Of a stretch of DNA of 42,426 nt, positions 5,148 to 40,332 are shown piece by piece. Position 1 is the stretch's first letter. Each line of letters starts with the position of its first letter. The translations under genes and the position numbers were made by a program. Origin of the DNA: a virus; the IMG/VR virus record IMGVR_UViG_3300030451_003752, positions 1 through 42,426 of that record. One strand, given 5' to 3'. The notes under the pieces are model-generated. The model saw nothing but the letters and a program-made list of their open reading frames with translations. It searched no databases and was not told the DNA's origin.

Positions 5148-8100
5148 CTAAATACATAAACTAACGTTATTTACTGAGCCATTTGTAGTTATTTGAAATT
5201 TTAAATGATTTTCATCTGGATTATTTGATTGGTCTTCTAATCCAACATACCAAGCGTTTTGTCCATTAAACACTGATGTACCTGCGGCGGAAGTATAAAT
5301 AGTGTCGCCTTCTGTTGGTAAAGTGCCATTCCCCTCAAACCATGCTTCCTGATTTGCTGAGTCATTACATACTTGACTTTGATTTGTATTACCAGCAGAT
5401 CTATAAAAACTTTTAACACTTGAAGAAATTATCGTTATTGCTAAATTTGTTTCAGCAAATAAACCACCAACATCAGTTACTCTTATTGTTAAAGTATAAG
5501 TATCACCAGCTGTTAAAGACGATGTATTCGTTGTAAGAACACCTGTTTGACCTCCTATTGCAAATTTATTAGCACTATTACCAGCTGAAATACTAAAAGT
5601 TAAACTATTAGTTTGTGCTGAAACTTTACCTGCACCATTAGTAGCACTATAGGTCCCCACAGTAGTTCCAGAGCTTGAATTATTAGATACATTTACTGAA
5701 CTAAATGGCGCAACTAAAGTAGGCGCAATATTTGTTAATGTTATAGTTTTTGTTTCTGTATGTTCATTTCCTCCACTATCTGTTACTTTAATTTCAAAAC
5801 TAAAAGTATCTTCAGGTCTATTTCTAAACTCGTGGCCTAAATGTGCAATACCAGTAGCGGTTCTTAATGCACCTGATGCTATTTGAAATTCATTAATTCT
5901 ATTTGTGTTGCCACCGTCTGTTACAGATTCTAAAGTATATGTTTCACCCGATGGAGAACCACCATTTGTATCTGTGTAAGTCAATGAAGCTATTTGTGTA
6001 TTTGCCGCAATATTTTCTGCAAAAGTATTTGCTGAAATATTTATACCCGACGGTGTTGAGCCTAGAGAAGCTTGTATTGCTTCGTTTAAATCTGATAATT
6101 TTCCGCCGGTTGATGTTTCAAAATATATATCCAATGCTGAAATAAATGGATCTGTTTCTAATACACATAATTTAGATGTACTAGGGCCGTTACCGCCGCC
6201 AAAACCGTCAGGTATTTCAGCCATAATAGGTTTTCTTTTAAAGTTAACAATAGCTTGACTTTCTTTTATATTGGCATTTCCTGAATCTGAATTATCAAAT
6301 TGGTCTTGAGTTCCTAATGCAATAATTTCAACAAAATCAGTTGTAGTTTGTTGTTTATGTCCGTTACCCACTATTCCATCTGCAATACCAGTTGCGTCTA
6401 CATTTAATATTCTAGGTAATAGTTTTGTTTTTGATGATGCAATTTGATTATCTAAACTACCATCAATTATATCTCTTGGCACTTTATTAACATTATCACC
6501 AAATAAAGTAATAAAGGAACTTTTTCCTGTATTACCACTTTCATTTATGTTATCTATTAAAGATGGAACATATACATTGTAATATTCTTGTTGCGCTTGT
6601 TTTACAACAACTTTATAAGAATACCAGCCATAAGGATTTGTATTTTTATCATAAACATCACTTATTGTTGCACCAAAATCCATATTTAATGCTGTCCCAT
6701 TCCATCTATTAGCTGCTACAAAACCTTCACCACCATCTGAATTATCGCCATCATTATTTGTATCTGTCATAGGTGTTATAGCGTCTGAAGATGTATCTCT
6801 TGGTGTAATATACGTTGTATTTGCTGTTGGCAAAAATACTGTTGATTGTCTACCATATCTATCAGCTAAAACTAAACCTACAGAATATTCTCTAGCTTGT
6901 TTTACAGAATGCAATAAATATTGCGAGTTATATTCTTCTTGATCTCTACTAGTAACACTAATATTATCTTTTCTTTCTATAAGATTTGTTATTGGTCTAT
7001 TTAATTTAAAATTACCATATATAATTCTATTACCAGAAACCTCTTGTGCTGCTGCTTTCATAGGAACTATATCAGCTACTCTTGTAATATCTGATTCTGG
7101 TAAGGTTTTTATTGGTTTAGTTGAATCGTATACATATTCAATACCAAATTTTAATTTAGCTTTTGCGTCAGAAGCAGGTTCGGCTCTATGTTTTATTATA
7201 TTATCTAAACTTGTTTGCCCTGTAGGTATTTTTATAGTATCTACAATTTTTACAGCAGGGCTATCAGATTCTGCATATACTATTTCAACTCTTTTAATTT
7301 TTAATGGGTTAGTATATTGATAATAATTTGTATCACTCCCAGGTTTAAAAAAGTATAATTTTTCATTATGAAATATACCTAAATTTGCAGGTATTTCTTC
7401 ATTAAAAGTTATTGTAGATGTATCTCCTAAATCAGCAGCTTCAGTTATAGAAGCAACCGTATATTTATCACCTCTAGCGGTTAGCATTGTTGTTGTATTA
7501 TCAATAACACCTGAGGCTTGACCAGTACCAGGTATACCAATACTATGAATACTTTGATTTGAACTTGCAGCTCCTACCATATGACCATCAACACTTAATG
7601 AACTATCTTTTACACCAGCGTCAGCCGAAGCCACATTATTTTTGTCTTCTTCAGATGGTAAATCTATAAATAAATGCACACGGTTTACCATGTTTTGAAA
7701 AACATCCATTACAGTAGCTTTTTGAGTTGCCATTGCTTCGGTTTGCGTTATTAATCCAGCTTGGCCTGATTTAAAGCTACCGTGATTTATATTTTTGCCT
7801 TTACCCGGTAAAAAACATGTTTGTGTAAAAGGTGATATTAAAGAAACTTCATTATTATCATATACATATCTATATCCAAATTTTACAAACTTATCTCTTA
7901 AGTGTAAACTTGGAACCGTTGAAGAAGCTACTTTAGTTAATTTTACTTTAGGGGCCGAATAAGGTGCAAATTGCGCAACGCTAATTCTATCTTCAAAAAA
8001 ATCATCGTCAGGAAATGAAGTGCTATCAATATTTATTCTTCTAGGTTGATTATAATTATCTGTCCAAAATAATAAATTATCTAATAAGTTAACGTGATGT

Positions 8101-8798
8101 ATATGGTGATTTTTTGAAAAATTTAATCTTTTATTATCTATTATTGGTGAAGGAGAGGTGTTTTGTATTGTATTGAATCTATATATTCTACATGTATGCG
8201 TAAATGTTAAAGTTACATCATCTAACACTGTTTCACTAGATTGCGCTTTATTTAATGTTATTGTATGAACATTACTAGATGTAGAAACTGCTTGAACATA
8301 TGTATCTGTCGCAACACCAGTACCAGTAACTTTCATTCCGACTTGAATATCATAATTAGAAGCGTTAGCTATTTCTATAGTATTATGATTAGTTGTATCG
8401 TCGTCATGAGTTACATCATTACCATCACTCCCTCCTAAAACAACCACGTCAGCAGCAGTTTTATATAACAATACATCATCGCTTGCTGCATTGCCAGCAA
8501 AAGAAGTTACAAACCAAAATACATCGCCAGTTTGAGAATTATTATAAAATCCAATAGTTTCCCATAAAGAAAATGTATCTTCCCCAACCGCATCAATACT
8601 AACTGGTAAACCTGTAATTGTTCCACCAGCATAAGCATAATCATTTCCTAATACATTTTGTACAGCTCCAACGCTTGATCCTTCAGACTTTGAAACAGTT
8701 ATATTTTGTGCGTCTCTATACTGGCCGTTAGGTAATAATCTATCATCAAGGTCTTTGTTCATTTTACCTTGAATAAAGTTATTTTTAATTACTGGCAT
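5148..8798 (-). CDS. Giant tail hub/stabilization protein with cadherin-like domains and Cys-terminated module (1216 aa)
   Basis: The N-terminus (NNFIQGKMNKDLDDRLLPNG, then YRDAQNITVSKSEGSSVGAV) has the layout of phage packaged-DNA stabilization/tail nozzle proteins, which begin with a beta-propeller-like body. Residues about 915-1015 form a cadherin-like repeat (TFAENIAANT, then FSFEIKVTDSGG, ending TKTITLTNIAPT). A second, weaker repeat spans about 1020-1125 (YTLTIRVTDVGG). The last ~85 residues form a Cys-bracketed module (VCNDSANQEAWF to SLCI) shared with three other tail proteins here. The cadherin-like domains probably act in calcium-dependent adhesion or as spacers. It is the largest protein encoded in the window. 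Confidence 0.82.
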   Translation of the reverse strand: MPVIKNNFIQGKMNKDLDDRLLPNGQYRDAQNITVSKSEGSSVGAVQNVLGNDYAYAGGTITGLPVSIDAVGEDTFSLWETIGFYNNSQTGDVFWFVTSFAGNAASDDVLLYKTAADVVVLGGSDGNDVTHDDDTTNHNTIEIANASNYDIQVGMKVTGTGVATDTYVQAVSTSSNVHTITLNKAQSSETVLDDVTLTFTHTCRIYRFNTIQNTSPSPIIDNKRLNFSKNHHIHHVNLLDNLLFWTDNYNQPRRINIDSTSFPDDDFFEDRISVAQFAPYSAPKVKLTKVASSTVPSLHLRDKFVKFGYRYVYDNNEVSLISPFTQTCFLPGKGKNINHGSFKSGQAGLITQTEAMATQKATVMDVFQNMVNRVHLFIDLPSEEDKNNVASADAGVKDSSLSVDGHMVGAASSNQSIHSIGIPGTGQASGVIDNTTTMLTARGDKYTVASITEAADLGDTSTITFNEEIPANLGIFHNEKLYFFKPGSDTNYYQYTNPLKIKRVEIVYAESDSPAVKIVDTIKIPTGQTSLDNIIKHRAEPASDAKAKLKFGIEYVYDSTKPIKTLPESDITRVADIVPMKAAAQEVSGNRIIYGNFKLNRPITNLIERKDNISVTSRDQEEYNSQYLLHSVKQAREYSVGLVLADRYGRQSTVFLPTANTTYITPRDTSSDAITPMTDTNNDGDNSDGGEGFVAANRWNGTALNMDFGATISDVYDKNTNPYGWYSYKVVVKQAQQEYYNVYVPSLIDNINESGNTGKSSFITLFGDNVNKVPRDIIDGSLDNQIASSKTKLLPRILNVDATGIADGIVGNGHKQQTTTDFVEIIALGTQDQFDNSDSGNANIKESQAIVNFKRKPIMAEIPDGFGGGNGPSTSKLCVLETDPFISALDIYFETSTGGKLSDLNEAIQASLGSTPSGINISANTFAENIAANTQIASLTYTDTNGGSPSGETYTLESVTDGGNTNRINEFQIASGALRTATGIAHLGHEFRNRPEDTFSFEIKVTDSGGNEHTETKTITLTNIAPTLVAPFSSVNVSNNSSSGTTVGTYSATNGAGKVSAQTNSLTFSISAGNSANKFAIGGQTGVLTTNTSSLTAGDTYTLTIRVTDVGGLFAETNLAITIISSSVKSFYRSAGNTNQSQVCNDSANQEAWFEGNGTLPTEGDTIYTSAAGTSVFNGQNAWYVGLEDQSNNPDENHLKFQITTNGSVNNVSLCI

Positions 8799-18648: not shown

Positions 18649-18920
18649 TACTTAGATCTTCTTTCTGCAAATCCTTTAAATGATTCTTCTTTTTTGTCTA
18701 AAGGTTTACCATCTAACATTGCATTTTCTTCTTCAATTCTATTTAATATCTCAAGTGCGTCAAATATTGCGAGCTTTTTAGTGGCTGCAGCGTTCTTGAG
18801 TCTATCGGCTGAAACATCATCATCAGTTTCAACAATCGGTTCTTTAGCAACTTTGATGAGTTGTTTGACTGCTTCATGTCCAGCTTGGATTATATTCTTT
18901 TTCGTTTCCTTGACGTTCAT
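18648..18920 (-). CDS. Small protein upstream of terL, candidate small terminase subunit
   Basis: The protein has 90 aa, is helical and highly charged, with a long helix candidate (KKLAIFDALEILNRIEEENA). It overlaps the large terminase gene by one base and the upstream 194-aa gene by 47 bases. Small terminase subunits are often encoded directly before the large subunit and are helical, but they usually also have a DNA-binding helix-turn-helix. None is obvious here. The assignment is tentative. Confidence 0.55.
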   Translation of the reverse strand: MNVKETKKNIIQAGHEAVKQLIKVAKEPIVETDDDVSADRLKNAAATKKLAIFDALEILNRIEEENAMLDGKPLDKKEESFKGFAERRSK

Positions 18921-19458
18921 ATTTAACAGTTATAAATTTAGTTAATACTCTATATAATCTTTCACCATCAACAATAAATTCATATTTACCGCCTGGAGCA
19001 AAACCAACTAAATCACCAACATTAATATTTTCAAGGTGTTTATTTGAATATTTAACAATACCACGAAATGGTATTTCTTTTTCTAAAACATTATTTGATT
19101 CAATTGGCTTAAGAAAGCAATAGTCTTTAGGTGCATTCCATTCATTGTTTCTTTTATACAAAAATAGCTGGTCTTGATTTACAAAATATTTATTGTCTTC
19201 CCAATAACCTTTACTATTTTTTTCTTCACCTTTTGCATTATACCATCTTCTAAAAACATTATGATGTACTATAACTTCGTCACCAACTTTTATTTCAGTA
19301 GATTGTAATTTAGGTACAGCTAAAACTATTCCTACACGACTAACATATCGATGATCAGATATTTCTGAATTTAATATCAGCTCTTTATCACCGATTTGTT
19401 TTGTATTGTCGTATCTTTTGTTTTTTGGCTTAACTATAAAATTAAATAAACTTTGCAT
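18874..19458 (-). CDS. Twin GroES-like beta-barrel protein (194 aa)
   Basis: Two halves each show a GroES-like barrel pattern. The first has VGIVLAVP followed by IKVGDEVIVHHNVFR and DQLFLYKR. The second has RGIVKYSN followed by NVGDLVGFAP, then EFIVDGERLYRVL and a closing strand. The VGD-hydrophobic motif followed by a DGExLYRVL-type strand is characteristic of Cpn10 chains. No mobile loop with a GGIVL-type motif is visible, so binding to GroEL cannot be claimed. It could be a structural or assembly protein that reuses the fold. It lies three genes downstream of the glycosyltransferase-like gene and just upstream of the terminase genes. Confidence 0.6.
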   Translation of the reverse strand: MQSLFNFIVKPKNKRYDNTKQIGDKELILNSEISDHRYVSRVGIVLAVPKLQSTEIKVGDEVIVHHNVFRRWYNAKGEEKNSKGYWEDNKYFVNQDQLFLYKRNNEWNAPKDYCFLKPIESNNVLEKEIPFRGIVKYSNKHLENINVGDLVGFAPGGKYEFIVDGERLYRVLTKFITVKYERQGNEKEYNPSWT

Positions 19459-19682: not shown

Positions 19683-19946
19683 TTATTTTTCTAAATTATA
19701 TTCTATTTTTCCAGTTCTAACATCAATATTAGCTTCTCCATATTTTTCTTTTAAACCAACTTGAAAATCTTTCAAATCCGCTTGAACCATAGTTAAAGCA
19801 TGTAAAACTTGATGTTTTTGCGTTTCTAAATTACCAACCTGTACAGTTCCATTATTAATTTTTTGTACAAATTCTTGTAATACTTGTAATTCTTCTTTTG
19901 TTACTTCTTTAGCAACTGGTGCTTTTTTCTTATAAGTTTTTCCCAT
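19683..19946 (-). CDS. Small coiled-coil protein (87 aa)
   Basis: A basic N-terminus (MGKTYKKKAPVAKE) precedes a heptad-like helical region (TKEELQVLQEFVQKINN, then QVLHALTMVQADLKDFQ). The end is an extended segment with NIDVRTGKIEYNLEK. This layout is common for small proteins of marine phage late regions. A coiled-coil homo-oligomer is likely; the role is unknown. Confidence 0.65.
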   Translation of the reverse strand: MGKTYKKKAPVAKEVTKEELQVLQEFVQKINNGTVQVGNLETQKHQVLHALTMVQADLKDFQVGLKEKYGEANIDVRTGKIEYNLEK

Positions 19947-19960
19947 AATATTTAATTTAA

Positions 19961-20848
19961 TTATTTTTTATCAGTAAGAAACCAATTTTTATATGTTTCT
20001 CTTTTAGCGCATATATAATCTATATACTTATCAACTTTTTCTTTCCAGTTTTTATCAACTTCAGGATTTATAATACCTGACTTATAACTTGAAAATGTTT
20101 TGTTAATATATTGTTTTGCATTTTTTTGATGCATTAATAAATGATTATTAATACAATAAAAAGATCCTTGCTGTATATTATTCCATACATCAATAGGTTC
20201 AGTGTTTTTACCTGAAACTATACCGTATAAACAACTTTCACTAATATGAGTTGTATATACACCTTTAGCTTTTTGTAAATAATAATACATGTTTATATCT
20301 CTTGGTAATATATTATCTTCCCCAAAAAAATCTTTTAGTTCACCTATAATCTGATGTGTTGTAATAGGATGTGGTTTAAAATAAACATTATCACCATGCA
20401 GTCTTGATATATATTTTAATCTATTTAAACATACGTTCTCACGTACTTTATTAGATCCTGGTAAAACTACTAAATAATCTTTAGGGGGATATTTGTCATA
20501 CAACTCTTTCCTATCTTCATATTTATTAGCTTTATTATCTACAATTCTATTTATAAACCAAGATGAATAATCAACAATTTCATTATTATCGTATAATGCA
20601 TCAATCATTTGTTCATTCCTAATTTTATAATTAAGAGGCTGTAAATAAAAACATCCTGCATACTCTGTGTATGCCATTGTTTTAAAATATGGCATTTCTT
20701 CTGCCATAACATCGTAGCTATGTTCTAAGCCATTTTCGCCACATTTTCTAAGCACATAACCTTCAACTGCTTCAAGGTTATATAATCCTTTAGATTTTTT
20801 AAGCGGCCCGATTCTTTTATCAAGCTCCGCTTTATTAAACATTTCCAT
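19961..20848 (-). CDS. Putative GT-B-like glycosyltransferase
   Basis: The protein has 295 aa. The central part has DYLVVLPGSNKVRENV, a Rossmann-type strand and loop. It is followed by NVYFKPHPITTHQIIGEL, then ILPRDINMYYYLQKAKGVYT and SESCLYGIVSGKNTEPIDVW. KPHP, a helix, and SExxLYGIxxGK...PID fit the nucleotide-sugar side of GT-B enzymes of the CDP-glycerol/capsule-transferase kind. It lies 52 bases downstream of two Thr/Ser-rich fibre-like genes and a methyltransferase-like gene. Modification of those fibres is a reasonable hypothesis. An alternative is modification of host surface glycans. Confidence 0.6.
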   Translation of the reverse strand: MEMFNKAELDKRIGPLKKSKGLYNLEAVEGYVLRKCGENGLEHSYDVMAEEMPYFKTMAYTEYAGCFYLQPLNYKIRNEQMIDALYDNNEIVDYSSWFINRIVDNKANKYEDRKELYDKYPPKDYLVVLPGSNKVRENVCLNRLKYISRLHGDNVYFKPHPITTHQIIGELKDFFGEDNILPRDINMYYYLQKAKGVYTTHISESCLYGIVSGKNTEPIDVWNNIQQGSFYCINNHLLMHQKNAKQYINKTFSSYKSGIINPEVDKNWKEKVDKYIDYICAKRETYKNWFLTDKK

Positions 20849-20900
20849 AAAATTTGATTTAATTTAACATATTATATTAATTACATGCTTTTATGTAATA

Positions 20901-22361
20901 CTAACTTCTTGGATGATGCACCGTTGAACCTGGTTGATGTGCAACTGTTGATGGACTATACCAAGTTGTTTGCGTTTGTACTGTTGTATTAAATGTCGTA
21001 GTATAAACTGTTGTTGTGCTAAACGTTGTCGTTGTGCTTGTTGACGTGTTATACGTTGTCGTTGTACTTGTTGACGTATTATATGTTGTTGTTGTAGCTT
21101 TTGATGTATTAAACGTCGTTGTTGTACTCTTGCTAGTTTCGTAAGCAGTTGTTGTATTTCTAGACGTACTAACAGTTGTATTAAACGTTGTTATTGTAGC
21201 AGTAGACGTATTAAAAGTTGTTGTTGTCGACTTGCTTGTTGAAAACGTCGTTGTCGTTGATCTAGTTGTTGACACGGTAGTATTAAACGTCGTTGTTGTT
21301 GCTGTGGACGTATTAAAGGTAGTAGTCGTGGCTCTAGTTGTTGAAAAAGTTGTAGACGTACTAATACTTGTTGGTACTGTTGTTCCAAATGTTGTAGTCG
21401 TTGATCTACTAGTGTTAAACGTAGTTGTTGTTGACCTTGTAGTCGCAAACGTAGTAGTGGTACTTTTGCTTGTTATTGTACTAGTATTAAAGGTTGTTGT
21501 CGTAGTATATAAAGTTGTTGTACTTCTTGATTCCGCTGTAGACTTAGAAGTTGCAAAAGTTGTAGTCGTAGACTTAGTTGTTAACTTACTTGTGCTAAAA
21601 GTTGTAGTTGTAGCTGTACTAGTATTAAATACTGTAGTTGTTGCATATGTTGTATTAAACGTCGTTGTTGTACTTTTTGATGTTACAGTACTTGTGTTAA
21701 ATGTGGTTGTAGTAGTAGTACTTGTATTAAACGTTGTTGTTGTTGCATAAGTTGTATTAAAAGTAGTCGTAGTACTCCTTGATGTTACCGTGCTTGTATT
21801 AAACGTTGTTGATGTCGTATATACAGTAGTGGTAGTTCTAGATTTAGTTGTATTTCTAGATGTAGCAAAAGTTGTTGTAGTGCTTCTAGTCGTGCTTCTA
21901 CTGGTATTATATGTTGTTGTTCTAGACGTGGCGAACGTAGTTGTTGTAGATTTACTTGTTACTCTACTAGTGTTAAACGTAGTAGTTCTAGACGTGTTAA
22001 ATGTTGTAGTCGTAGACTTAGATGTTATTGTGCTAGTATTAAAGGTTGTTGTTGTTGACCTACTAGTATTGTATGTAGTTATTGTTGTTGTACTTGTAGC
22101 TGTACTTTTAGATGTATTTCTACTTGTGTTAAAATAACTTGTATATGTAGTTGTAGTACTTTTACTAGTATTAAAAGAAGTTGTGGTGCTTTTACTAGTA
22201 TTATATGTCGTTGTTCTACTTGTATTAAAAGACGTACCATATACAGTAACATAAGTTGTTGCCGTAGACGTATTATAGCTAGTTGTGTAACTGGTATTAT
22301 AACTAGTTGTATAACTAGTTGTATACGTAGTATTATACGTAGTAGTAGTATTTGGTACCAT
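20901..22361 (-). CDS. Thr/Ser-rich repeat protein (486 aa)
   Basis: Almost the whole protein is built from ~10-residue units of the type STTTTFNTSK, with Phe/Tyr at one position and N-T-S in most units. The first ~60 residues are Tyr-rich variants (YNTSYTTSYNT). The end leaves the repeat with WYSPSTVAHQPGSTVHHP. No signal peptide or enzyme motif is visible. Codons for the same residues vary, so the repeat is kept at protein level. The composition is mucin-like and would suit an elongated beta-structured fibre or a glycan display surface. It follows the methyltransferase-like gene with a one-base overlap. Confidence 0.8.
   Translation of the reverse strand: MVPNTTTTYNTTYTTSYTTSYNTSYTTSYNTSTATTYVTVYGTSFNTSRTTTYNTSKSTTTSFNTSKSTTTTYTSYFNTSRNTSKSTATSTTTITTYNTSRSTTTTFNTSTITSKSTTTTFNTSRTTTFNTSRVTSKSTTTTFATSRTTTYNTSRSTTRSTTTTFATSRNTTKSRTTTTVYTTSTTFNTSTVTSRSTTTTFNTTYATTTTFNTSTTTTTTFNTSTVTSKSTTTTFNTTYATTTVFNTSTATTTTFSTSKLTTKSTTTTFATSKSTAESRSTTTLYTTTTTFNTSTITSKSTTTTFATTRSTTTTFNTSRSTTTTFGTTVPTSISTSTTFSTTRATTTTFNTSTATTTTFNTTVSTTRSTTTTFSTSKSTTTTFNTSTATITTFNTTVSTSRNTTTAYETSKSTTTTFNTSKATTTTYNTSTSTTTTYNTSTSTTTTFSTTTVYTTTFNTTVQTQTTWYSPSTVAHQPGSTVHHPRS
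20980..22340 (-). repeat. Degenerate tandem repeat encoding the STTTTFNTS units
   Basis: The plus strand reads as G/T-rich, GTTGTTGT-like DNA and the coding strand as A/C-rich, so the two strands are strongly asymmetric. Unit length is mostly 30 bases, with some shorter units. Third positions of Thr codons vary from unit to unit. Confidence 0.75.
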
Positions 22362-22930
22362 TAACTTATTGTTTCACCTGATATAGGTATTATTATTTTA
22401 CCACCCGCCTTTAAATGGCTGCTGTAATGATTAGTTAAATTTGTTTTATTATCCTGAGTAATATCATCTGGCTCAGCCCATAAATCACATATAATTATAT
22501 CATATGTTTTATTATTTGCAGGAACGTATGTCCATTCATCATGTTTAACTACATTAATATTTGAATTTATCCAGTTTACATGATCGACTAATGATGTGTT
22601 AGATTCAACAACATCTATAGAGGTTATTGATTTATTATTATAAATATAATCTGGTGTTACACCTAAATGTAAACCTAAATAAAGTATGTCGCCCCATGTT
22701 GCATTATCATATTGCGCTTTTGTTAAATCCCATCCACATGTATCACAATCGCCCACATATATTTTAGCTTCTATTTCTGTATTATATTTTATAAATATTA
22801 AATCAGATTTTTTTGTATAAGAAGATATTTGATAAGTTTCTGTAGCGCTGCTATATTTTACAACTTTTTGTATTATAAAATTTGATGTATTTGCGTCTAT
22901 TACATTGCTTTCGTTAAAATAAGTGCTCAT
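22361..22930 (-). CDS. SAM-dependent methyltransferase-like protein (Rossmann fold)
   Basis: The protein has 189 aa. The pattern WGDILYLGLHLG (motif I) is followed by SITSIDVVE (acidic end of strand two), then YDIIICDLW (motif II) and LKAGGKIIIPI (motif III). This strand order is that of class I methyltransferases and spermidine-synthase-like proteins. The glycine loop is GLHLG rather than GxGxG, so activity is uncertain. Two CxxC-forming cysteines (CDTCGW) lie at about residues 60-63. It sits between two Thr/Ser-repeat genes, whose products are the obvious candidate substrates. Confidence 0.6.
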   Translation of the reverse strand: MSTYFNESNVIDANTSNFIIQKVVKYSSATETYQISSYTKKSDLIFIKYNTEIEAKIYVGDCDTCGWDLTKAQYDNATWGDILYLGLHLGVTPDYIYNNKSITSIDVVESNTSLVDHVNWINSNINVVKHDEWTYVPANNKTYDIIICDLWAEPDDITQDNKTNLTNHYSSHLKAGGKIIIPISGETIS

Positions 22931-22932
22931 AA

Positions 22933-24852
22933 TTAAATTTGTTTAAATTCTACATCAATTTCTTTCATTGTATAATGAACCCATTTATATCCATTAAAAT
23001 TAATTACAGCTCCATCAATATGTTCTATTTCATCAGCCATAACACCTTGCCATAAACCTTTACCATATTTTTCATCTTTAAATTTAAACGAATATATATT
23101 TATTCCGTTAGAAGATACCCCAATTAGTTTAATATCTTTTTTCAATCTTCTATCTGAGAATCCACCTCCACCACATGTATCAAGAGAAATCACGCCTCCA
23201 GAACCACCACTAATTCTATATCTATGTGATGGACTAAAGCCTGCAACATTCGAAGCTCCATACCACCCATCACTTGGCGATGCAGTTCCGCTTGAATTTG
23301 TATATACAAAACTACTTGTTTGTGGTAATCCACTAGAAACATTTGATCCATAATACGTGTTTGAAATAAACTCATTACACACAAAATTAAAGTTACTTAA
23401 ACCTGTAGATCCGAAAGATGTTAAAGAAGATGTAGTACTTGTTGATCTACTAGTTGATCTACTAGTTACCCTGCTTGTACCCCTACTTGTTCCTTTGGTT
23501 GTTGTTCTACTTGTTCCTTTACTTGTTACTCTACTAGTGTTTTTATAAGTATTTCTACTCGTAACATATGTTGTTGTTCTAGATGTATTGAATGTAGTTG
23601 TAGTTGACCTACTAGTTCCAAATGTAGTTGTAGTTGACTTAGATGTAACTACACCTGTACTAAACGTTGTTACATAAACTGTTGATGTTCCATATACAGT
23701 TGTTGTTGATCTACTTGTAGCAAAAGTTGTTGTAGTAGTTCTTGATGTACTAAAAGTTGTTGTATAAACCGTCGTTGTAGATCTACTTGTAGCAAAAGTT
23801 GTCGTTCTACTGGTTGGGAATGTTGTTGTATACGTTGTAGTTGTAATAGTACTTGTGTTAAACGTTGTTGTTCTAGATGTATTATAAGTAGTGGTAAATA
23901 CAGTTACTGTTGATGTACTAGTATTAAATGTTGTACTAACCACATATACTGTTGTTGTACTTCTACTTTCTGTTGTATTTTTACTAGTATTAAACGTAGT
24001 TGTATAAGCAGTAGTTGTAGATCTTGAAGTACTTCTAGTTTCTTGTGTTGATCTTGATGTAGCAAATGTTGTTGTTGTACTTCTGCTTGTATTGAACGTG
24101 GTTGTATATACAGTAGTCGTAGATTTAGATGTGCTTCTAGTTTCCTGTGTTGATCTGCTAGTTGAAAACGTTGTGGTCGTGCTTCTAGTTGTATTAAAAG
24201 TTGTTGTATATTGAGTAACAGTTGAAGTACTTGTATTAAACGTAGTTGTTGTTGTATATAACGTAGTTGTGCTTCTACTTTCAGCAGTTGACCTAGTTGT
24301 TGCAAACGTGGTTGTATATGCTGTAGTTGTATTTGTACTCGTGTTAAATGTAGTAGTAGTAGATTTAGACGTAGAAAACGTAGTCGTTGTAGATTTACTA
24401 GTTGCTGTAGTAGTATTATATACAGTAATAGTATTTGTACTAGTATTGAATGTAGTCGTAGTAGATCTAGTTGTTGAAAATGTAGTTGTTGTAGATCTTG
24501 ACGTTGCTGTACTAGTATTAAATGTTGTAACAGTAGCTGTAGATGTGTTAAATGTAGTAGTAGTACTTCTTGATGTACTAAAGGTAGTTGTAGTACTTCT
24601 TGTTGTGGCTGTACTTGTATTAAATGTAGTTACTGTAGATGTACTTGTGTTAAAAGTTGTTGTAGTACTTCTTGTTGTATTGAATGTGGTCGTGGTAGAT
24701 TTAGATGTACTAAATGTTGTAGTAGTAGATCTAGATGTGGCAAATGTAGTATTAGTCGATCTAGTTGTATTAGTCGACTTACTTGTATTCTTGCTTGTAG
24801 ATCTTGTTGTAGCAGTGTTCCAAAAATCTATTCTTGACCATATCCACTTCAT
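22933..24852 (-). CDS. Thr/Ser-repeat tail fibre with Cys module and S74 chaperone tail (639 aa)
   Basis: Residues ~12-460 are Thr/Ser-rich repeats like those of the 486-aa protein (STTTTFNTS and shorter forms), with a Gly/Arg-rich stretch near the end (KGTSRTTTKGTSRGTSRVTS). Next comes a Cys-bracketed module (NFVCNEF, then FVYTNSSGT, ending SLDTCG). The last ~75 residues start at FSDRRLKKDI (Ser566), continue with INIYSFKFK and GVMADEI, and form an S74-type chaperone tail. In that family the tail is cut off just before the Ser after the fibre trimerises. The S74 tail marks this protein, and by association its 486-aa neighbour, as a tail fibre or spike. Confidence 0.85.
   Translation of the reverse strand: MKWIWSRIDFWNTATTRSTSKNTSKSTNTTRSTNTTFATSRSTTTTFSTSKSTTTTFNTTRSTTTTFNTSTSTVTTFNTSTATTRSTTTTFSTSRSTTTTFNTSTATVTTFNTSTATSRSTTTTFSTTRSTTTTFNTSTNTITVYNTTTATSKSTTTTFSTSKSTTTTFNTSTNTTTAYTTTFATTRSTAESRSTTTLYTTTTTFNTSTSTVTQYTTTFNTTRSTTTTFSTSRSTQETRSTSKSTTTVYTTTFNTSRSTTTTFATSRSTQETRSTSRSTTTAYTTTFNTSKNTTESRSTTTVYVVSTTFNTSTSTVTVFTTTYNTSRTTTFNTSTITTTTYTTTFPTSRTTTFATSRSTTTVYTTTFSTSRTTTTTFATSRSTTTVYGTSTVYVTTFSTGVVTSKSTTTTFGTSRSTTTTFNTSRTTTYVTSRNTYKNTSRVTSKGTSRTTTKGTSRGTSRVTSRSTSRSTSTTSSLTSFGSTGLSNFNFVCNEFISNTYYGSNVSSGLPQTSSFVYTNSSGTASPSDGWYGASNVAGFSPSHRYRISGGSGGVISLDTCGGGGFSDRRLKKDIKLIGVSSNGINIYSFKFKDEKYGKGLWQGVMADEIEHIDGAVINFNGYKWVHYTMKEIDVEFKQI
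23430..24830 (-). repeat. Degenerate tandem repeat encoding Thr/Ser units of the 639-aa fibre
   Basis: This is the same low-complexity A/C-rich coding pattern as at 20980-22340, with units such as TTTTFNTSR and TTTTFATSR, some shortened to TTTVYTTTF. The long Val/Leu open frames on the opposite strand are by-products of the repeat. Confidence 0.75.
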
Positions 24853-24863
24853 CTAATTATGTT

Positions 24864-25238
24864 TTATGGTTGAGGATAACCGCCAAAGTCTCCTACATAG
24901 TTTACTAGTACTTTATCTGCCGCTGCAATAAAATATGTTAATACAGCAAGTTTACTTGCAGTTGTATTGAAAGATATTGTTGAACCCCCTGGTGTATAAG
25001 CTGTAGCTGGTAATTCAGCCCAACCTAATGAACCAACAGTTCCTGGGTTAGTTATAACAATAGTACCTGCTTTACCAATTTTACTTGCATCTAAATTACT
25101 AAATGCAATTGTATTAGTAGCGTTTTGTGCAGCGATACTATAGTTATTACCGTGTGCATCAAAATCTATAGTATGCGTATTACTTGAATGTGTAATTGCA
25201 ACTAACGGTTGTGTTATATCTAAAGAAAATAATGCCAT
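24864..25238 (-). CDS. Small tail fibre/adhesin protein (124 aa)
   Basis: I start it at the ATG complementary to 25236-25238 (MALFSLDITQPLVAITHSSN). A longer start at 25277 would run through the intergenic hairpin. The pattern NTIAFSNLDASKIGKAGTIV is followed by GTVGSLGWAEL and LAVLTYFIAAADKVL, ending VGDFGGYPQP. It matches the receptor-end domain seen in many phage fibres. It is encoded next to the other fibre genes and after a hairpin. Confidence 0.72.
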   Translation of the reverse strand: MALFSLDITQPLVAITHSSNTHTIDFDAHGNNYSIAAQNATNTIAFSNLDASKIGKAGTIVITNPGTVGSLGWAELPATAYTPGGSTISFNTTASKLAVLTYFIAAADKVLVNYVGDFGGYPQP

Positions 25239-25255
25239 ATAAATATATTTAAATA

Positions 25256-25286
25256 AATACTGACGGTGCTTTCGCACCGCCGTATT
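25256..25286 (-). terminator. Hairpin with GAAA loop after the 627-aa fibre gene
   Basis: On the minus strand CGGTGC-GAAA-GCACCG (25264-25279) is a six-base-pair stem with a GNRA tetraloop. An outer AATAC/GTATT stem (25256-25260 with 25282-25286) encloses it. T-rich sequence follows. The architecture mirrors the hairpin after the capsid gene. Confidence 0.65.
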
Positions 25287-29897: not shown

Positions 29898-30151
29898 TCA
29901 ACTAAAACTATATCACTTAATCTTAAAACATAATACAGTTTTTCATTTAATTCTATACCATGTCCTTGATGCTTATCATAATGTACTATATCATTAGGAT
30001 TTAATCCTTCTGCTAATTTTCCAGCAGATATTATTTTACCTTTTGAATATCTTACATCTTTATTTTGATCCTCTGTTAATTCAAGGCCTCCTACTTTCTT
30101 CGGCGCCTCTTTTATCTTTTCAACAATTACGTAATGACTAAGCGCTTGCAT
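29894..30151 (-). CDS. groES: Phage co-chaperonin GroES (Cpn10)
   Basis: The protein has 85 aa, against about 97 in bacterial GroES. It has the Cpn10 order: VIVEKI strand, the mobile loop KKVGGLELTEDQ (equivalent to the GGIVLTG loop that binds GroEL), SKGKIISAGK, PNDIVHYDKHQGHGIELNEK, and the final strand YYVLRLSDIVLVE. The mobile loop has the hydrophobic triplet needed to dock on GroEL. The dome loop seems shortened. It overlaps the 3' end of groEL by 14 bases, so the two are co-translated, with groEL first, the reverse of the usual bacterial order. Confidence 0.9.
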   Translation of the reverse strand: MQALSHYVIVEKIKEAPKKVGGLELTEDQNKDVRYSKGKIISAGKLAEGLNPNDIVHYDKHQGHGIELNEKLYYVLRLSDIVLVE

Positions 30152-31703
30152 TTTCTAATCTTACATTACTTATTACACAATTAGCTGAGAATATTGTATT
30201 AACTACACTAACAGCATTTTTCAATGCAGTTTTAGTTACAAGTACTGGATCAATAATACCTGCTTCGATCATATTTACTTCTGAGTTATTTACAACATCA
30301 ATACCTATGCCAACTTTACCAGATTCTTTATGTGCCAATGCAGCATTATCTAGTATTGCAGCATAAGGCGCTTTTATTGCTTCTAACAATATAGCCTCAC
30401 CATCGTTTTCAGGTATTATCGCATAAGATGCATCTAATAATGCAACTCCTCCTCCAGATATTATACCTTCTTGCAATGCCGCTTTTGTTGCATATATTGC
30501 ATCTTCTACTCTGTCTTTCTTTTCTTTCATTTCAACTTGTGAATCTGCACCAACAGAGATCATTGCAACTTGCCCATTTAGCATTGCTAATCTTTCTTGC
30601 ATTTTCTTTTTAAAGAATGGATTTTTTTCTTTTTTAATTTTCTTTTCAACCATTTTAATTCTTTCATCCAAAACAATACCTTGATCGATTGTTTGAATTA
30701 CTGTATGTGAATTATCAGTTATTGACTGAACAGCTTCACCTAAAACATCTGGTTGTATTAAATCAAGATCATCTCCTAATTCTTCATTAATGACTTTTGC
30801 TCCGGTTAATATCGCAAGATCTTCAATCGTATCTTGTTTAGTTGGCCCGAATCCAGGCAAATCTACAACATTTACTTTTATATTACCTTTGACTTTGTTA
30901 GCAAGCAACGCCGCCATAGGTTGTTGTTCTACGCCCGCAACGATCAACAAACTCCTTTTCTCTTTAATAACAAACTCCAACACGCTTTGTATTTTACGAA
31001 TATTAGGTATCGGCGAGGAAACTATCAGTACGTACGGATTATCTAGCACTGCTTTACCTTTATCCTTATCTGTCATAAAGTGTGGCGATTTAAGTCCGCA
31101 GTCCAACCTCGTGCCCTCCACGAATTTAACGTGTGTGTCATGGGTCTCAGACTCTTCCATTAGGACGACACCATCCTTACCTACTTTTGAATAAGCTTGC
31201 GATATAATTTCACCAAGAGCTTTATCATTATTACAACTAATAGCACTTACAGCTTGTAGCATTTTACCATCAACTGGAACTGCATTTTTCTCTAAGTACT
31301 CAGTTACTTTTTTAAGACCTGAAAGAATACCTTCTTTTATAGGTCTTACAGTTTGTTCGTATTTCTTTTCATTAGCTAAATGTAGCAATGATTGCGCAAG
31401 TACAGTAGCTGTTGTAGTACCGTCACCTGCTTCTTTAACTGTATTTCTAGCTGCTTCTTTAATTAAAGTTGCACCTATATTTTCGACCGGGTCATATAAG
31501 ACTACGGATTCTGCTACCGTTACACCGTCTTTTGTAATTACCGGTCTTCCCATTGCGTCTTCATATATAACGCATTTACCTGATGCACCAAGAGTTGACT
31601 TCACTGCGTTAGCTAGCTTATCAACTCCGTGCATTATCTTGTCTTTTGCTTCTGTCCCGAAAGACAGATCTTTTACTATCTCACTCGGATTATTATATTC
31701 CAT
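30138..31703 (-). CDS. groEL: Phage chaperonin GroEL (Cpn60)
   Basis: The protein has 521 aa. All key Cpn60 elements are visible: TKDGVTVA, the ATP motif GDGTTTATVLAQ, the apical VVDLPGFG segment followed by QDTIEDLAILTGAKVI, and VEDAIYATKAALQEGI, whose Asp is the catalytic one. GGGVALL follows. The C-terminus stops at VISNVRLENASA, so the flexible Gly-Gly-Met tail of bacterial GroEL is absent. It probably folds bulky virion proteins such as the capsid or giant fibres. Between about 30890 and 31170 (residues ~178-271, start of the apical domain) codon use is more GC-rich than in the rest of the gene, which suggests recombination. Confidence 0.95.
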   Translation of the reverse strand: MEYNNPSEIVKDLSFGTEAKDKIMHGVDKLANAVKSTLGASGKCVIYEDAMGRPVITKDGVTVAESVVLYDPVENIGATLIKEAARNTVKEAGDGTTTATVLAQSLLHLANEKKYEQTVRPIKEGILSGLKKVTEYLEKNAVPVDGKMLQAVSAISCNNDKALGEIISQAYSKVGKDGVVLMEESETHDTHVKFVEGTRLDCGLKSPHFMTDKDKGKAVLDNPYVLIVSSPIPNIRKIQSVLEFVIKEKRSLLIVAGVEQQPMAALLANKVKGNIKVNVVDLPGFGPTKQDTIEDLAILTGAKVINEELGDDLDLIQPDVLGEAVQSITDNSHTVIQTIDQGIVLDERIKMVEKKIKKEKNPFFKKKMQERLAMLNGQVAMISVGADSQVEMKEKKDRVEDAIYATKAALQEGIISGGGVALLDASYAIIPENDGEAILLEAIKAPYAAILDNAALAHKESGKVGIGIDVVNNSEVNMIEAGIIDPVLVTKTALKNAVSVVNTIFSANCVISNVRLENASA

Positions 31704-32417: not shown

Positions 32418-32876
32418 TTAAGGGCATTGATCACATTGTCTAGCCGTTACAACACCTGATGAATTTACTGTTAGAATAGTATAACAACCATTATTCGTAG
32501 TACAACCAAAAGCGTTTATATCATCAGGTAACCAATACTCGCCAGCTGATAATGTACTGTTTGTAGAGCAAGGAGTTGTATAAAGTACCGTGTTTACTCC
32601 AGGTGAACCAGTATAATAAACAGGTGAAACATCAGTAAAACCTGGATTGTCATATCTTTCGATAGATGTTATTACATTACCATAAGATGTAGCAGGGTTT
32701 GGTGAACAGCTTGTATTCAATGTTGGATAACTAACAGTTGATCCATTAGTATTACCGCCATTCATCATATCGTACATAGAAATAGTACCCATACTTTGAG
32801 TACCATCATAGTCTCCATGCTTAGCTTCTCTAGCCATTTTTAGCATTGATAATGTTCCACTACTTGGTACTGCCAT
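32418..32876 (-). CDS. Tail protein with N-terminal fibre-base motif and Cys module (152 aa)
   Basis: The start MAVPSSGTLSMLKMAREAKH is a recurrent base motif of small tail proteins in flavobacterial phages, followed by MGTISMYDMMNGGNTNGS. The C-terminal half carries the Cys module: VLYTTPCSTNSTLSAGEYWL, then NNGCYTILTVNSSGVVTARQ, ending CDQCP. It overlaps the end of the giant fibre gene by 17 bases, so translation is likely coupled. Confidence 0.75.
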   Translation of the reverse strand: MAVPSSGTLSMLKMAREAKHGDYDGTQSMGTISMYDMMNGGNTNGSTVSYPTLNTSCSPNPATSYGNVITSIERYDNPGFTDVSPVYYTGSPGVNTVLYTTPCSTNSTLSAGEYWLPDDINAFGCTTNNGCYTILTVNSSGVVTARQCDQCP

Positions 32877-35800
32877 TTTTTAAAATTTCTATTTCAGCTT
32901 TCAAATCTTTTATAGCTTCTATTAAATATCCAACAACATTACCATAAGCTACTGCTTTATACTCACCTTCGTTATTAACTAGTTCTGGTGCAATTTTTTC
33001 TAACTCTTGTGCTATAACACCACTACTTTCTTTATTGTCTTTTATAAAACTAACACCTCGCATATCATATACTTTTGAGCCATCAAGTGTTTTTATATCC
33101 GATTTTAATCTTTCATCTGAATAAGCAACTACATCCCCACTGGCTGTCATAGCCCCTGTAACATTTACTCCTCCTGTAACCGTTTCTAATTTTTTAGCGT
33201 TATCAAAATACAATTCTGTTTTGCCATCGTTTCTTACTATAATACCGTTTTCACTTTCTTTTGGCCTAAGATGTATTTCACCACTAGGGTTACATCTTAT
33301 ATATAAGTTACCTGTATTATTATCAATATATGAATTATTACTTGTATGATATAAATCAAGATCAGCACCTGTACCTAATTCAAGTTTATGTCCATCTTCA
33401 AATGTCATATCACCATTTACAGTGACATCACCTGTTATAGTACCTCCAGATAATATATTTGTATTTGTATTTGTACTTGAAAAGTTTAATTTACCAGCTG
33501 AATCATTATATGTAACTGATATATTAGTCTCGGTATTACCGCTAACCATTGCTCCAACTATATCCTGTACTTGTTCTGTTGATAATTGAGTATTTGTATT
33601 AGTAGCATCTATTGTAACTTCACCGCTGCTTTCGCTTAATGTAATATTATTACCAGCTACTATATCTAATGCTGTAGTCGATCCAATAGAAGTGCCATCA
33701 ACTGAAATTGATCTAAATGTGTTTGTATCAGTATCTGTTGATGCAAAATTAAGTTTTCCATTAGCGTCGTCATATGTTACCGTTATATTTGTTTCTGTAT
33801 TACTAGACACCATACCGCCTACTATATCTTGTACTTGTTCTGTTGTTAGCTGTGTATTGGTATCTGTATCTGTAGATGTAATAGTTAAAGTATTATTAGC
33901 ATCGTCTTCAGATAAACTTACGTTAGTTCCAGCTTGTAACATTGCAGCAACTACATCTCTTATATCTTCGTCTGTTCTCTGTGTATTAGTATCTGTTGCC
34001 GCTATAGTTAAAGTATTAGCTGAATCATCTTCAGTTAAACTTATATTAGTACCAGCTGTAAGCATTGCAACCGTAACGTCTCTAATATCTTCATCTGATC
34101 GCTGAGTGTTTGTATCTGTAGATGCTATAGTTACTGCCCCGCCGCTTTCTGTTATTGTAACATTCGATCCTTCTGTAAAAGCAAGTGTTTCTGATGCACC
34201 TAAAGTATTACCGCCAGCTGTGACAGTTCTGAATGTATTATCGTTTGTATCTGTTGATGATATTGTTATAACACCTGCTGCTTCAGATAATGTTATATTA
34301 CTACCTTTTTTAAATCTTAATGTTTCGGACGCTTCTAAAGTAGTGTTGGCAGTGCCATTCCCATTACTATCAACCTCTACTGTTCTAAATGTGTTGGTAT
34401 CTGTATCGGTTGCAGCAATTGTAATTTGACCATTATTTTCAGTCAGGGTTACATTTGTACCTCCAACTAAATTTAAAGTTTCTGTATCTCCAATAGATGC
34501 TCCGTCAGCTTGTACAGTTCTAAATGTATTTGTATCTGTTGTATAAGAAGGTACTGCCCATTTATTATCTTTTGTTAAAAATCTATCGGTTGTATCTGAA
34601 GTTCCGTCAGTAGCGCTTAAATCAGCTGTAACTGTTATTGCCCCTGTAGCAGCACTATTAGGCGTTAAGTTGATAAAAGTACCATCTGTAGTTGTAACAC
34701 TTGATACAGCATCGGTTGGTGTTAACAATTCAGTATAATCAGCCATAGTACCAGCTGTCCCGCCATTATGTACATATGATTTGTTTTCATCTGATCTTAC
34801 AACTATATCACCTTCTTGTGCTGTTAAAGCTAGATGTGCTGTTTGGTTAGCTGCAGTTTGTACGGTTGTTAATGCAATTGCACCAACATTTAAAACACCA
34901 TTACCGTCAATTGTTAAATTGCCTCCGACTTTTACACCACCTAGCGTGCTTGACGATGCAGTCGGTAAAGTATACGATTGGTCATCTGCTACAAAGTTTA
35001 TTTTATTATTTGTATCATCATATGTAACTGAAATCCTAGTTTCAGTATTACTCGATAACATTTCTCCCACATAGTCCTGTACAGTTTCTTTTGATAATTG
35101 AGTACCTGAAGCTGTAAAATCTAATTTACCATTAGTATCATCATATGTTACAGTTACGTTGCTTTCTGTATTGCCTGATACCATTGCTCCTACAATATCT
35201 TGCACCTGTTCATCAGTTAACTGAGTATTTGTGTCTGTCGATGCAAAATCGAGCTTGCCGTTGGTATCATCATAAGTAACCGATATGTTTGTTTCGGTGT
35301 TACTTGAAACCATGTTGCCTATAATATCTTGAACCTCTTCTGTAGATAATTGTGTGTTAGTATCGGTCCATGGTACATTAACATATGCTTTTTCACTATC
35401 CAGCTCGACTGGATAATTTTTTCCGGATTCAGTATATCCTATCTTTATTCCACCTAAAGCGGAAGAACTTGCAGCTGGTAATGTATAATTCATATCATCA
35501 ACTACAAAATCTATGCTACCATTGTTATCATCATATGTAACACCTATTCTAGTTTCGGTACCACCCAACATATTACCTACAATATCTTGCACTTCTTCCG
35601 TTGACAACTGGGTATTTGTATCTGTTGAGCTAATTGTTCCATTGCCAGCAATAGTTATATTAGTTCCTGCTGTTAATGCTGCTACCACATTTGTAGTATC
35701 AGTCACATCAGCGTTACTTTCTATGTTATCTAGCTTAGTTTTTAGTGTATTTGTGAAGTCGTTGGCAGTTGGAGTAAAAGTTACGTCTGAATCGCTTTGT

Positions 35801-36339
35801 CTAGTAAGCGTTAATGTTTGTCCACTTACACTTGCGTTGGTTACATTGCCTTGTGCTAGCGTAAAATAAGCTGGAAGTGTTATAACTCCTGTAGAACTGT
35901 TATAACTTGCTCCTCCACCTGATACAGATATAGCAGATCTTGATCGTGCATTAGTAAAATAGAGATTACTTGACCCTTCAGCTACATCATCTGTGCCTAA
36001 TGTTCTAGAACCACCTAAAGAAACAGCAGTTCCGTTGATTGTTATGCTAGAATTAGCTAAATCTGAGTTAGCAAGTTGCCCTGTTATGTTCGATGCACCT
36101 AAATCTATAGCTAATCTGTCCACATTGTCAATAGTTTCCTCTACAATACCACCATTTGCCTTCAAATTGACTGATGCAGTACTAACATTTGCTCCGACGA
36201 AGTCGGAAATTTCTTTTAATGTGAAGTTATTTGTTTGAAATTGGTCAATACCGTTGATAGTATTGATATAATTGGAACCAATTACCTTATCTTTGTCTGA
36301 TAGTTGAGTATCTTTGACGTATGTATCAATTCTAGCCAT
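32860..36339 (-). CDS. Giant modular tail fibre with S74 chaperone tail (1159 aa)
   Basis: I start it at 36339 (MARIDTYVKDTQLSDKDKVI), one base after the stop of the upstream gene (TAAtATG). The body repeats three module types. One is NTQLSTEQVQDIVGAMVSGN with TETNISVTYDDTNGKLDF (six copies). One is QRTDEDIRDVVAAML (two copies). One is NTFRTVQADG with GGTNVTLTENNGQITI (four copies). Residues ~1000-1070 hold a beta-rich region with LRPKESENGIIVRNDGKTEL. The last ~86 residues from YSDERLKSDI (Ser1074) are an S74 chaperone domain ending in a coiled coil (LIEAIKDLKAEIEILKNG). Cleavage before Ser1074 is expected. Confidence 0.9.
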   Translation of the reverse strand: MARIDTYVKDTQLSDKDKVIGSNYINTINGIDQFQTNNFTLKEISDFVGANVSTASVNLKANGGIVEETIDNVDRLAIDLGASNITGQLANSDLANSSITINGTAVSLGGSRTLGTDDVAEGSSNLYFTNARSRSAISVSGGGASYNSSTGVITLPAYFTLAQGNVTNASVSGQTLTLTRQSDSDVTFTPTANDFTNTLKTKLDNIESNADVTDTTNVVAALTAGTNITIAGNGTISSTDTNTQLSTEEVQDIVGNMLGGTETRIGVTYDDNNGSIDFVVDDMNYTLPAASSSALGGIKIGYTESGKNYPVELDSEKAYVNVPWTDTNTQLSTEEVQDIIGNMVSSNTETNISVTYDDTNGKLDFASTDTNTQLTDEQVQDIVGAMVSGNTESNVTVTYDDTNGKLDFTASGTQLSKETVQDYVGEMLSSNTETRISVTYDDTNNKINFVADDQSYTLPTASSSTLGGVKVGGNLTIDGNGVLNVGAIALTTVQTAANQTAHLALTAQEGDIVVRSDENKSYVHNGGTAGTMADYTELLTPTDAVSSVTTTDGTFINLTPNSAATGAITVTADLSATDGTSDTTDRFLTKDNKWAVPSYTTDTNTFRTVQADGASIGDTETLNLVGGTNVTLTENNGQITIAATDTDTNTFRTVEVDSNGNGTANTTLEASETLRFKKGSNITLSEAAGVITISSTDTNDNTFRTVTAGGNTLGASETLAFTEGSNVTITESGGAVTIASTDTNTQRSDEDIRDVTVAMLTAGTNISLTEDDSANTLTIAATDTNTQRTDEDIRDVVAAMLQAGTNVSLSEDDANNTLTITSTDTDTNTQLTTEQVQDIVGGMVSSNTETNITVTYDDANGKLNFASTDTDTNTFRSISVDGTSIGSTTALDIVAGNNITLSESSGEVTIDATNTNTQLSTEQVQDIVGAMVSGNTETNISVTYNDSAGKLNFSSTNTNTNILSGGTITGDVTVNGDMTFEDGHKLELGTGADLDLYHTSNNSYIDNNTGNLYIRCNPSGEIHLRPKESENGIIVRNDGKTELYFDNAKKLETVTGGVNVTGAMTASGDVVAYSDERLKSDIKTLDGSKVYDMRGVSFIKDNKESSGVIAQELEKIAPELVNNEGEYKAVAYGNVVGYLIEAIKDLKAEIEILKNGSTK

Positions 36340-36340
36340 A

Positions 36341-36574
36341 TTATTTTTCTTTTTTGGTTCCTCTACCAAAACTACCTCTGTTATTTTTTACAGAAGTGAA
36401 CCTTTTTGTCTTATGATCGTAGTCTTTACCTTTAATATTCTTGCCTTTTTTCTTAGCTGCACGCCTTTTTCTCTGATTTTCAGCCTTTTTCTTGCGTCTA
36501 TCAGCTGTCATTGCATATCTTTTGTCTCTTCTCGCTTTTGCGGCCTTTGCTCGTTTACTTAGTTTTTGTGCCAT
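36341..36574 (-). CDS. Small basic protein, first gene of the late block (77 aa)
   Basis: It is extremely Lys/Arg-rich (AKAARARRDKRY-like runs, then DRRKKKAENQRKRRAAKKKG) with a C-terminal SFGRGTKKEK. It resembles other small basic proteins at 28957-29454. It is the first gene after the divergent region, so it would be the first translated from any late leftward promoter. DNA- or RNA-binding is likely from charge alone. Confidence 0.65.
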   Translation of the reverse strand: MAQKLSKRAKAAKARRDKRYAMTADRRKKKAENQRKRRAAKKKGKNIKGKDYDHKTKRFTSVKNNRGSFGRGTKKEK

Positions 36575-40318: not shown

Positions 40319-40332
40319 CTAAAATTAAAATT

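Follow-up and report, generated by a model that had tools for sequence, protein, structure and literature searches.

Fibre locus of the window

A stretch of viral DNA of 42,426 nucleotides (IMG/VR record IMGVR_UViG_3300030451_003752, positions 1 to 42,426; hereafter the window) contains a cassette of four genes at positions 19,961 to 24,852. The source record has the same 42,426 bases and represents a crAss-like podophage, for which the muzzle protein, portal and terminase are identified. The four genes all lie on the minus strand and are transcribed in the order FIB1 (fibre D), methyltransferase-like (MT-like) gene, FIB2 (fibre B) and glycosyltransferase-like (GT-like) gene. The original prediction, made from the letters of the window, regarded them as a cassette for building and chemically modifying a repetitive fibre. 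The presence of these four genes, the repetitive nature of the two fibres and the S74 tail of FIB1 (23.4 bits against the Pfam cut-off of 22 for PF13884) are confirmed. The repeat regions of FIB1 and FIB2 are complementary to each other in mirror order, as described below, and this complementarity, which the original prediction missed, is the deeper result. The features of the cassette are as follows.

22933 to 24852, minus strand: fibre D (FIB1), dyad-repeat chain with a C-terminal S74 domain, 639 amino acids (aa), 36% Thr and 17% Ser
23419 to 24852, minus strand: repeat region of FIB1 (residues 1-478), in antiparallel pairing with FIB2 at i+j = 477 ± 5 (0-based)
23158 to 23418, minus strand: FIB1 residues 479-565, non-repeat region preceding S74, with a putative tip or receptor role by comparison with single-gene hairpins
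22972 to 23157, minus strand: FIB1 residues 566-627, S74 intramolecular chaperone (PF13884; tblastn matches to S74 proteins)
22361 to 22930, minus strand: MT-like gene, Rossmann methyltransferase-like, in the slot between both fibres, 189 aa
20901 to 22361, minus strand: fibre B (FIB2), dyad-repeat chain without S74, 486 aa, 49% Thr and 16% Ser
20904 to 20957, minus strand: FIB2 residues 469-486, C-terminal non-repeat tail, located where the pairing reaches the N-terminus of FIB1
19961 to 20848, minus strand: GT-like gene, GT-B fold, 295 aa, with HP motif K158-x-H160-P161 and S203-E204

Residue pattern of the repeats

Aromatic residues, Lys/Arg (K/R) and most Thr residues of the fibres occupy positions of one parity, and Asn residues those of the opposite parity. 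In FIB2, 50 of the 52 aromatic residues lie on one parity, which is shared by all 32 K/R residues. The face that carries the aromatic residues is composed of 60% Thr, 20% aromatic residues and 13% K/R, and the opposite face of Thr, Ser, Asn, Ala and Val. The spacings between aromatic residues are even in 92% of 5,728 cases (38 pairs of fibres, defined below), with spacings of 10, 14, 4 and 6 occurring mixed. In the 10-residue units, Thr occupies the positions 2, 6 and 8 after the aromatic residue at frequencies of 97%, 97% and 99% respectively, and the Thr residues of this predicted outward face are hardly ever swapped for Ser or Val. This pattern suggests that each chain forms an extended beta strand with a face of small residues and a face of Thr, aromatic and basic residues. 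The regularity of the repeat is at the protein level, because codon usage is mixed inside the repeats. The PDB sequence searches with both fibres give chance matches only. BLAST with FIB1 matches only the S74 part, because low-complexity filtering was on.

Antiparallel complementarity of FIB1 and FIB2

Fibres cut by contig ends being excluded, 53 FIB1-FIB2 pairs were collected, which are reduced to 43 distinct pairs when near-identical ones are dropped and to 38 non-redundant pairs at a 7-mer Jaccard index under 0.5. The lengths of the repeat cores of FIB1 and FIB2 in the 43 distinct pairs, which range from 426 to 1411 aa, are correlated with r of 0.98 and a slope of 1.006. At locus L094 the core lengths are 948 and 817, and they become about equal once an insertion of ~130 aa is removed from FIB1. 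This insertion (~residues 731-860) appears globular and has no FIB2 counterpart, as if a domain bulges from a rod.

The relative offsets at which the aromatic residues of both chains coincide were determined for the parallel and antiparallel orientations. The antiparallel offsets give two sharp and about equal peaks exactly 10 residues apart with a near-empty interval between them, and the parallel offsets give no coincidence of aromatic residues comparable to these peaks. In the window, 28 matches are obtained at −5 and 28 at +5, as compared to 0, 2, 0 and 3 at four offsets between them, a result reached by none of 500 shuffles. In the paired region of the window, 41 of the 47 FIB1 aromatic residues have an aromatic FIB2 partner. 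When the FIB2 segments are shuffled 500 times, no shuffle attains the doublet score of the actual pair for 36 of the 38 non-redundant pairs. The normalised score has a median of 0.80 for the matched pairs and 0.05 for 173 chain combinations from mismatched genomes, with 36 of the 38 matched pairs lying above the 95th percentile of these controls. The inner peaks at ±5 are kept even though the outer peaks vary (±9 at L004 and L037; ±11 at L161 and L168). A log-odds table of facing residues was compiled along the diagonal picked from the aromatic residues only, and covers 36 pairs with L004 and L039 left out. In this table, K/R residues face each other at 0.37 times the background rate and face Thr at 1.29 times. 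Thus, FIB1 and FIB2 show mirror complementarity, a conclusion in which confidence is very high.

Mirrored insertions and deletions

Gaps between close relatives are of even length in 246 of 264 cases. A length change in FIB1 is mirrored in FIB2, in the reverse order and at the mirrored place. Between L121 and L128, for example, the changes are −10, +34, −8 and −12 along FIB1, and −12, −8, +34 and −10 along FIB2. L126 and L127 differ in both fibres by the presence or absence of 204 bp. The codons concerned, ~122-126 and 303, add up to ~427, which is the pairing centre of L126. The MT gene located between these two fibres is aligned without gaps at 96% identity, and the flanking genes have identities of 96-99.7% and contain no gaps, save a tail protein (91.5%) with small indels. 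In 19 comparisons, the offset of the partner is exactly predicted by the antiparallel map at 75% of the positions on average, as compared to 21% by the parallel map.

Phage fibres are usually homotrimers, and both proteins consist of long repeats of similar units, so FIB1 and FIB2 could be parallel homotrimeric fibres that share a repeat and owe their matched lengths to concerted evolution (gene conversion) of paralogues. Gene conversion, however, predicts parallel similarity, whereas in the window the best parallel score is 18, the same as the maximum of the shuffles, and the antiparallel doublet reaches 51. A DNA inversion cannot reverse the order of amino acids either, and the matched indels at mirrored positions contradict gene conversion. 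Parallel pairing with gene conversion is therefore rejected by the mirrored indels, and this explanation is considered highly improbable. A simple homotrimer, the form in which the original prediction proposed to model the repeat, likewise does not accord with a complementarity that is antiparallel and between two different chains.

The original prediction is close to another explanation, in which FIB1 and FIB2 lack an ordered structure, are heavily glycosylated in the manner of mucins and are modified by the GT and MT. The Thr/Ser content and the tight linkage to a GT-B gene and an MT-like gene are in line with it. However, the strict two-residue beta alternation, a Pro content of about 1%, the complementarity of residues and the mirrored indels need an ordered structure, so that the mucin-like label does not hold and this explanation is regarded as extremely improbable. 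The N-T-S sequence, said to recur in most units, is frequent only: FIB2 contains 32 formal N-glycosylation sequons (23 of them N-T-S) and FIB1 contains 24 (15 of them N-T-S). Its reading as an N-glycosylation signal is not favoured, since Asn sits on the small-residue face, which is predicted to be the inner one, and is freely replaced by Ser, Thr, Ala, Glu or Gly, and since the GT model matches other families first.

Fibres encoded by a single gene

In other phages, a single gene would encode both strands, with a hairpin loop that carries the tip domain. The same doublet is found within the one chain of single-gene fibres, with its centre at 0.48-0.55 of the length in 24 of 30 fibres, and the fold point holds a non-repeat loop or small domain. 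Fourteen of the 30 beat all 300 shuffles, and most short ones do not. As an internal control, lone fibres from two-gene lineages show a midpoint mirror in 1 of 11 cases. The mirror itself is thus shown for the one-gene fibres, and it suggests that these chains fold as hairpins. The difference between 24 of 30 and 1 of 11 indicates that the two-gene form looks like a hairpin split at the tip. A two-gene fibre would have at its tip the C-terminus of FIB1, with its domain and S74, next to the N-terminus of FIB2, and at its base the N-terminus of FIB1 next to the C-terminus of FIB2.

Proposed model of the fibre

As the statistics show, FIB1 and FIB2 are antiparallel and in register over the whole repeat, and each FIB1 aromatic residue meets FIB2 aromatic residues at i+j = c−5 and c+5. 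According to the proposed model, the two proteins would be the complementary chains of a single long and thin fibre, each chain being a continuous beta strand. They may be coiled together into an antiparallel double-stranded beta-helix, each chain making one turn per 10 residues, with the small face pointing inward and the Thr/aromatic/basic face outward. Antiparallel neighbours at ±5 are expected if two strands wind in this manner. In a packing estimate that uses generally known strand geometry and amino-acid volumes, the side chains of the small face fill a radius of 4.0 Å, which equals the 4.0 Å offered by two strands at 10 residues per turn. The 10-residue double helix is favoured as the specific fold with some reservation.

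A closed tube of higher order, such as three FIB1 and three FIB2 chains or three hairpins alternating in an antiparallel manner with a 10-residue stagger per repeat unit, would also give two diagonals 10 residues apart, as expected from any alternating closed sheet. FIB1 bears S74, which is a trimer in known proteins. However, four or six strands with a round cross-section would leave a hollow core, with a filled radius of 5.7 or 6.9 Å as compared to 9.4 or 14.9 Å available, and the mixed aromatic spacings of 10, 14, 4 and 6 do not provide fixed corners every 10 residues. This tube is considered unlikely.

Several observations weigh against the two-chain model. The pairing data do not give the number of copies, so that there may be 2, 4 or 6 strands, and S74 is usually active as a trimer. 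In the shuffle test, two pairs fall short or lie at the limit (L187, 32 of 500 shuffles; L157, 1 of 500), L068 has an excess of K/R-K/R coincidences (13 and 11, against a mean of 5.3), and several pairs are related and hence not independent. Distant indel comparisons agree poorly, as exemplified by L126 and L151 with 0.06 exact. Short hairpins are individually not significant (e.g. L014, L033, L035 and L063), and neither is the mirror test for the Thr-rich fibres of five cultured phages, namely BL198, Lullwater, Quill_5.2 and Cr30 of Caulobacter and KVP40 of Vibrio. AlphaFold2 gives no usable model for a 218-aa one-gene fibre with 11 sequences (mean predicted local distance difference test score, pLDDT, of 35.5).

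Glycosyltransferase-like protein

The model of the GT-like protein has a pLDDT of 93.6, and its best structural matches are KpsC (Z of 10.6), WbbB (9.8) and KrkA (8.2), with ~215-223 residues aligned at 8-15% identity. It has the GT-B fold of the retaining beta-Kdo (3-deoxy-D-manno-octulosonic acid) transferases (Z of 10.6 to 8fuw over 221 residues, with a root-mean-square deviation of 3.9), so that its earlier description as GT-B-like is borne out. Lower-ranked matches include a polysialyltransferase (6.9). K158, H160 and P161 of the HP motif are invariant in 48 of 48 rows of the alignment, and the S203-E204 pair is conserved over these 48 diverse rows. The GT-B fold and the HP motif are common to this protein and the retaining beta-Kdo transferases KpsC, WbbB and KrkA (GT99/GT107). 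KpsC is reported to have a QXXXD motif with an Asp nucleophile (PMC10148158). This motif is absent from the window GT, the acceptor of which is presumably a protein, and the corresponding loop reads LPGSNK, which counts against glycosylation. In an alignment by eye of LVVLPGSNK134 with the KpsC segment LVVDQTFN (then residue 160), the positions of Q and D are occupied by P and K. The protein is therefore termed "like" the Kdo transferases rather than one of them, because HP is kept and QXXXD is absent.

The adjacent GT-B enzyme most likely would glycosylate the outward Thr residues from a sugar activated by cytidine monophosphate. Glycosylation of Thr is the most likely role of the GT, because the outward Thr is almost invariant and the GT is present in nearly every record; glycosylation of the fibre by this enzyme is likely. 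Alternatively, the antiparallel pair may exist as proposed while the GT-like protein serves as an assembly chaperone or in another non-glycosylating role. The genes directly downstream of phage fibres often encode chaperones, and the nucleophile motif of the Kdo transferases is missing. On the other hand, the GT-B fold is confident, the HP motif and S-E pair are conserved, and the outward Thr is almost never exchanged for Ser or Val, so that such a role is rather doubtful. Modification of the fibre by the enzymes of the cassette is in general somewhat probable. Glycosylation of a capsid protein by phage GT genes has reportedly been suggested for mycobacteriophage Maravista (PMC11256854). In both cases phage GT genes are proposed to act on a structural protein, but the target in Maravista is a capsid protein, whereas here the GT is almost always adjacent to a fibre cassette.

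Methyltransferase-like protein and putative tip modules

The 189-aa MT-like protein matches a PHROG methyltransferase family (0.0018) and PDB methyltransferases (0.004), and its glycine-rich S-adenosylmethionine loop is degenerate, LGLHLG. In other phages, the short MT is replaced by a ~350-aa gene (L169:4572-5669, L192:5232-6311 and others), which matches guanidinoacetate methyltransferase at 9e-15 and has an intein-like domain (2e-4) at its C-terminus. The short MT and the ~350-aa gene are related with an hhalign profile probability of 90. Thus, the match to the guanidinoacetate N-methyltransferase family is clear for the ~350-aa gene, whereas the 189-aa protein is related to it by profile comparison only. 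These matches point weakly but consistently to a methyltransferase-like protein, in line with the original prediction. The MT-like protein may perhaps methylate the fibre, possibly at Arg or Lys.

When inspected by eye, the C-termini of FIB1 are S74-like in 21 of 24 pairs with the short MT and in 0 of 11 pairs with the long MT. At L004, L037 and L039, which have no gene between the fibres, FIB1 ends in NGILTHN, presumably an intein-like motif. The C-termini being S74-like or intein-like depending on lineage, a self-processing module seems to be located at the tip in most lineages.

Distribution of the cassette

A scan of viral contigs with a codon pattern for two repeat units gives at least 119 matching stretches. 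Among the 119 matches listed, a gene follows the fibre in 91, no following gene is in view in 27, and 1 lacks a fibre under the rule applied. With GT genes called by profile hidden Markov models, the GT directly follows the fibre in 76 of these 91 listed loci and comes as the second or third gene after it in another 4. It is located only upstream of the fibre in 2 loci and is not seen in 9; a search of the whole records of these 9 finds a GT in 8. A search based on the GT gives 122 relatives, of which 80 were kept, and 77 GT genes were examined in these loci. Nine of them have no upstream gene within view, and in all 68 others the gene directly upstream is a fibre. The co-occurrence expected from the original prediction is thus seen in other phages. 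In the record of L072 (G004), the GT match at 5252-6079 on the minus strand holds one in-frame TAA, which may represent a sequencing error or a broken copy.

Two fibre genes are present in many phages. The slot between them is occupied 47 times by a ~189-aa gene and 18 times by a ~350-aa gene; it is empty in 3 cases and contains a 60-aa frame in 1, as counted in loci that partly overlap. Thr-rich fibres are also located near GT homologues in the Caulobacter and Vibrio phages named above. The dyad-repeat proteins of KVP40 (NC_005083.2, 131224-131817 and 132125-132886) and BL198 (OQ135102.1, 37489-38142 and 38139-39002) are Thr-rich and annotated as hypothetical, and are located directly before the GT homologue or two genes upstream of it. 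No fibre is found among four genes translated near the GT homologue of Vibrio phage F86.

Flanking genes

Two genes flank the cassette of the window as follows.

24864 to 25277, minus strand: 137-aa protein; in related loci, the gene immediately preceding FIB1 or the single fibre gene usually encodes a protein similar in sequence
19683 to 19946, minus strand: 87-aa protein; in window-type phages, its gene usually follows the GT directly

The terminase of the window is closest to that of an uncultured Manatee Spring podophage (63%), followed by those of Flavobacterium and Cellulophaga phages. In the syntenic region of MW202828 and a Flavobacterium elemo phage, the genes on either side of the cassette site match the window, and tblastn gives no match to the four cassette genes. 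The cassette looks like a module, because the flanks match but the four genes do not in both relatives. The muzzle protein (5148-8798) is of crAss type (PF25731, 2.5e-15) and has a C-terminal cadherin domain (PF00028, 1e-9). A GroES-like gene (18874-19458; phrog_13932) is located three genes downstream of the GT and is possibly relevant to the folding of the fibre; a GroEL gene is located at 30138-31703 (phrog_5725). A 1169-aa protein (32860-36369), probably another tail fibre, has its own S74 tail (PF13884, 5e-9) and a 123-bp tandem repeat at 33866-34133. A tRNA-Met (CAT) gene is located at 40244-40319.

Discussion

The cassette proposed by the original prediction is partly right, and the combined reading, in which the fibres are paired, wound as a helix and modified, is judged probable, with the most weight placed on the pairing. 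The triple-stranded beta-helix of needles and fibres such as T4 gp5 resembles the proposed fibre in that the chains run round an axis with in/out alternation and a short repeat. It differs in that its chains form parallel, identical trimers, whereas the chains here are antiparallel, are different proteins or the arms of a hairpin, and have a 10-residue register. A parallel association of identical chains is not found here, since the chains that complement each other are two different proteins in opposite orientations. The closest geometric idea is gramicidin, in which two antiparallel strands are coiled into one tube. Gramicidin is, however, a short peptide of alternating L and D residues, whereas the chains here are ribosomal products with 426-1411 repeat residues.

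A full-text search of the open-licence literature finds no paper describing this type of fibre. The mirror-paired fibres and the adjacent GT suggest a mode of virus-fibre assembly that has not been described before. The fibres may tentatively be placed in a new class, that of all-L double-stranded beta-helices with antiparallel chains and 10 residues per turn. Such fibres would be made as a hairpin or as two complementary products co-evolving at the level of single residues, and their outward Thr residues would be glycosylated by a GT-B enzyme encoded nearly always next to them. This assignment has somewhat less than an even chance of being correct in full.

If true, this architecture would be unlike the parallel trimers known for phages. 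The residue order of one protein would be matched in reverse by that of the other for as many as 1,400 residues, and an insertion in one would be offset by an insertion at the mirrored position of the other. The code would be simple, with aromatic over aromatic, basic over Thr and 10 residues per turn, and could serve in predicting or constructing thin protein rods of set length. The architecture would account for a repeat that is widespread among environmental phages and unannotated, and would provide a concrete system for testing fibre glycosylation by a phage enzyme.

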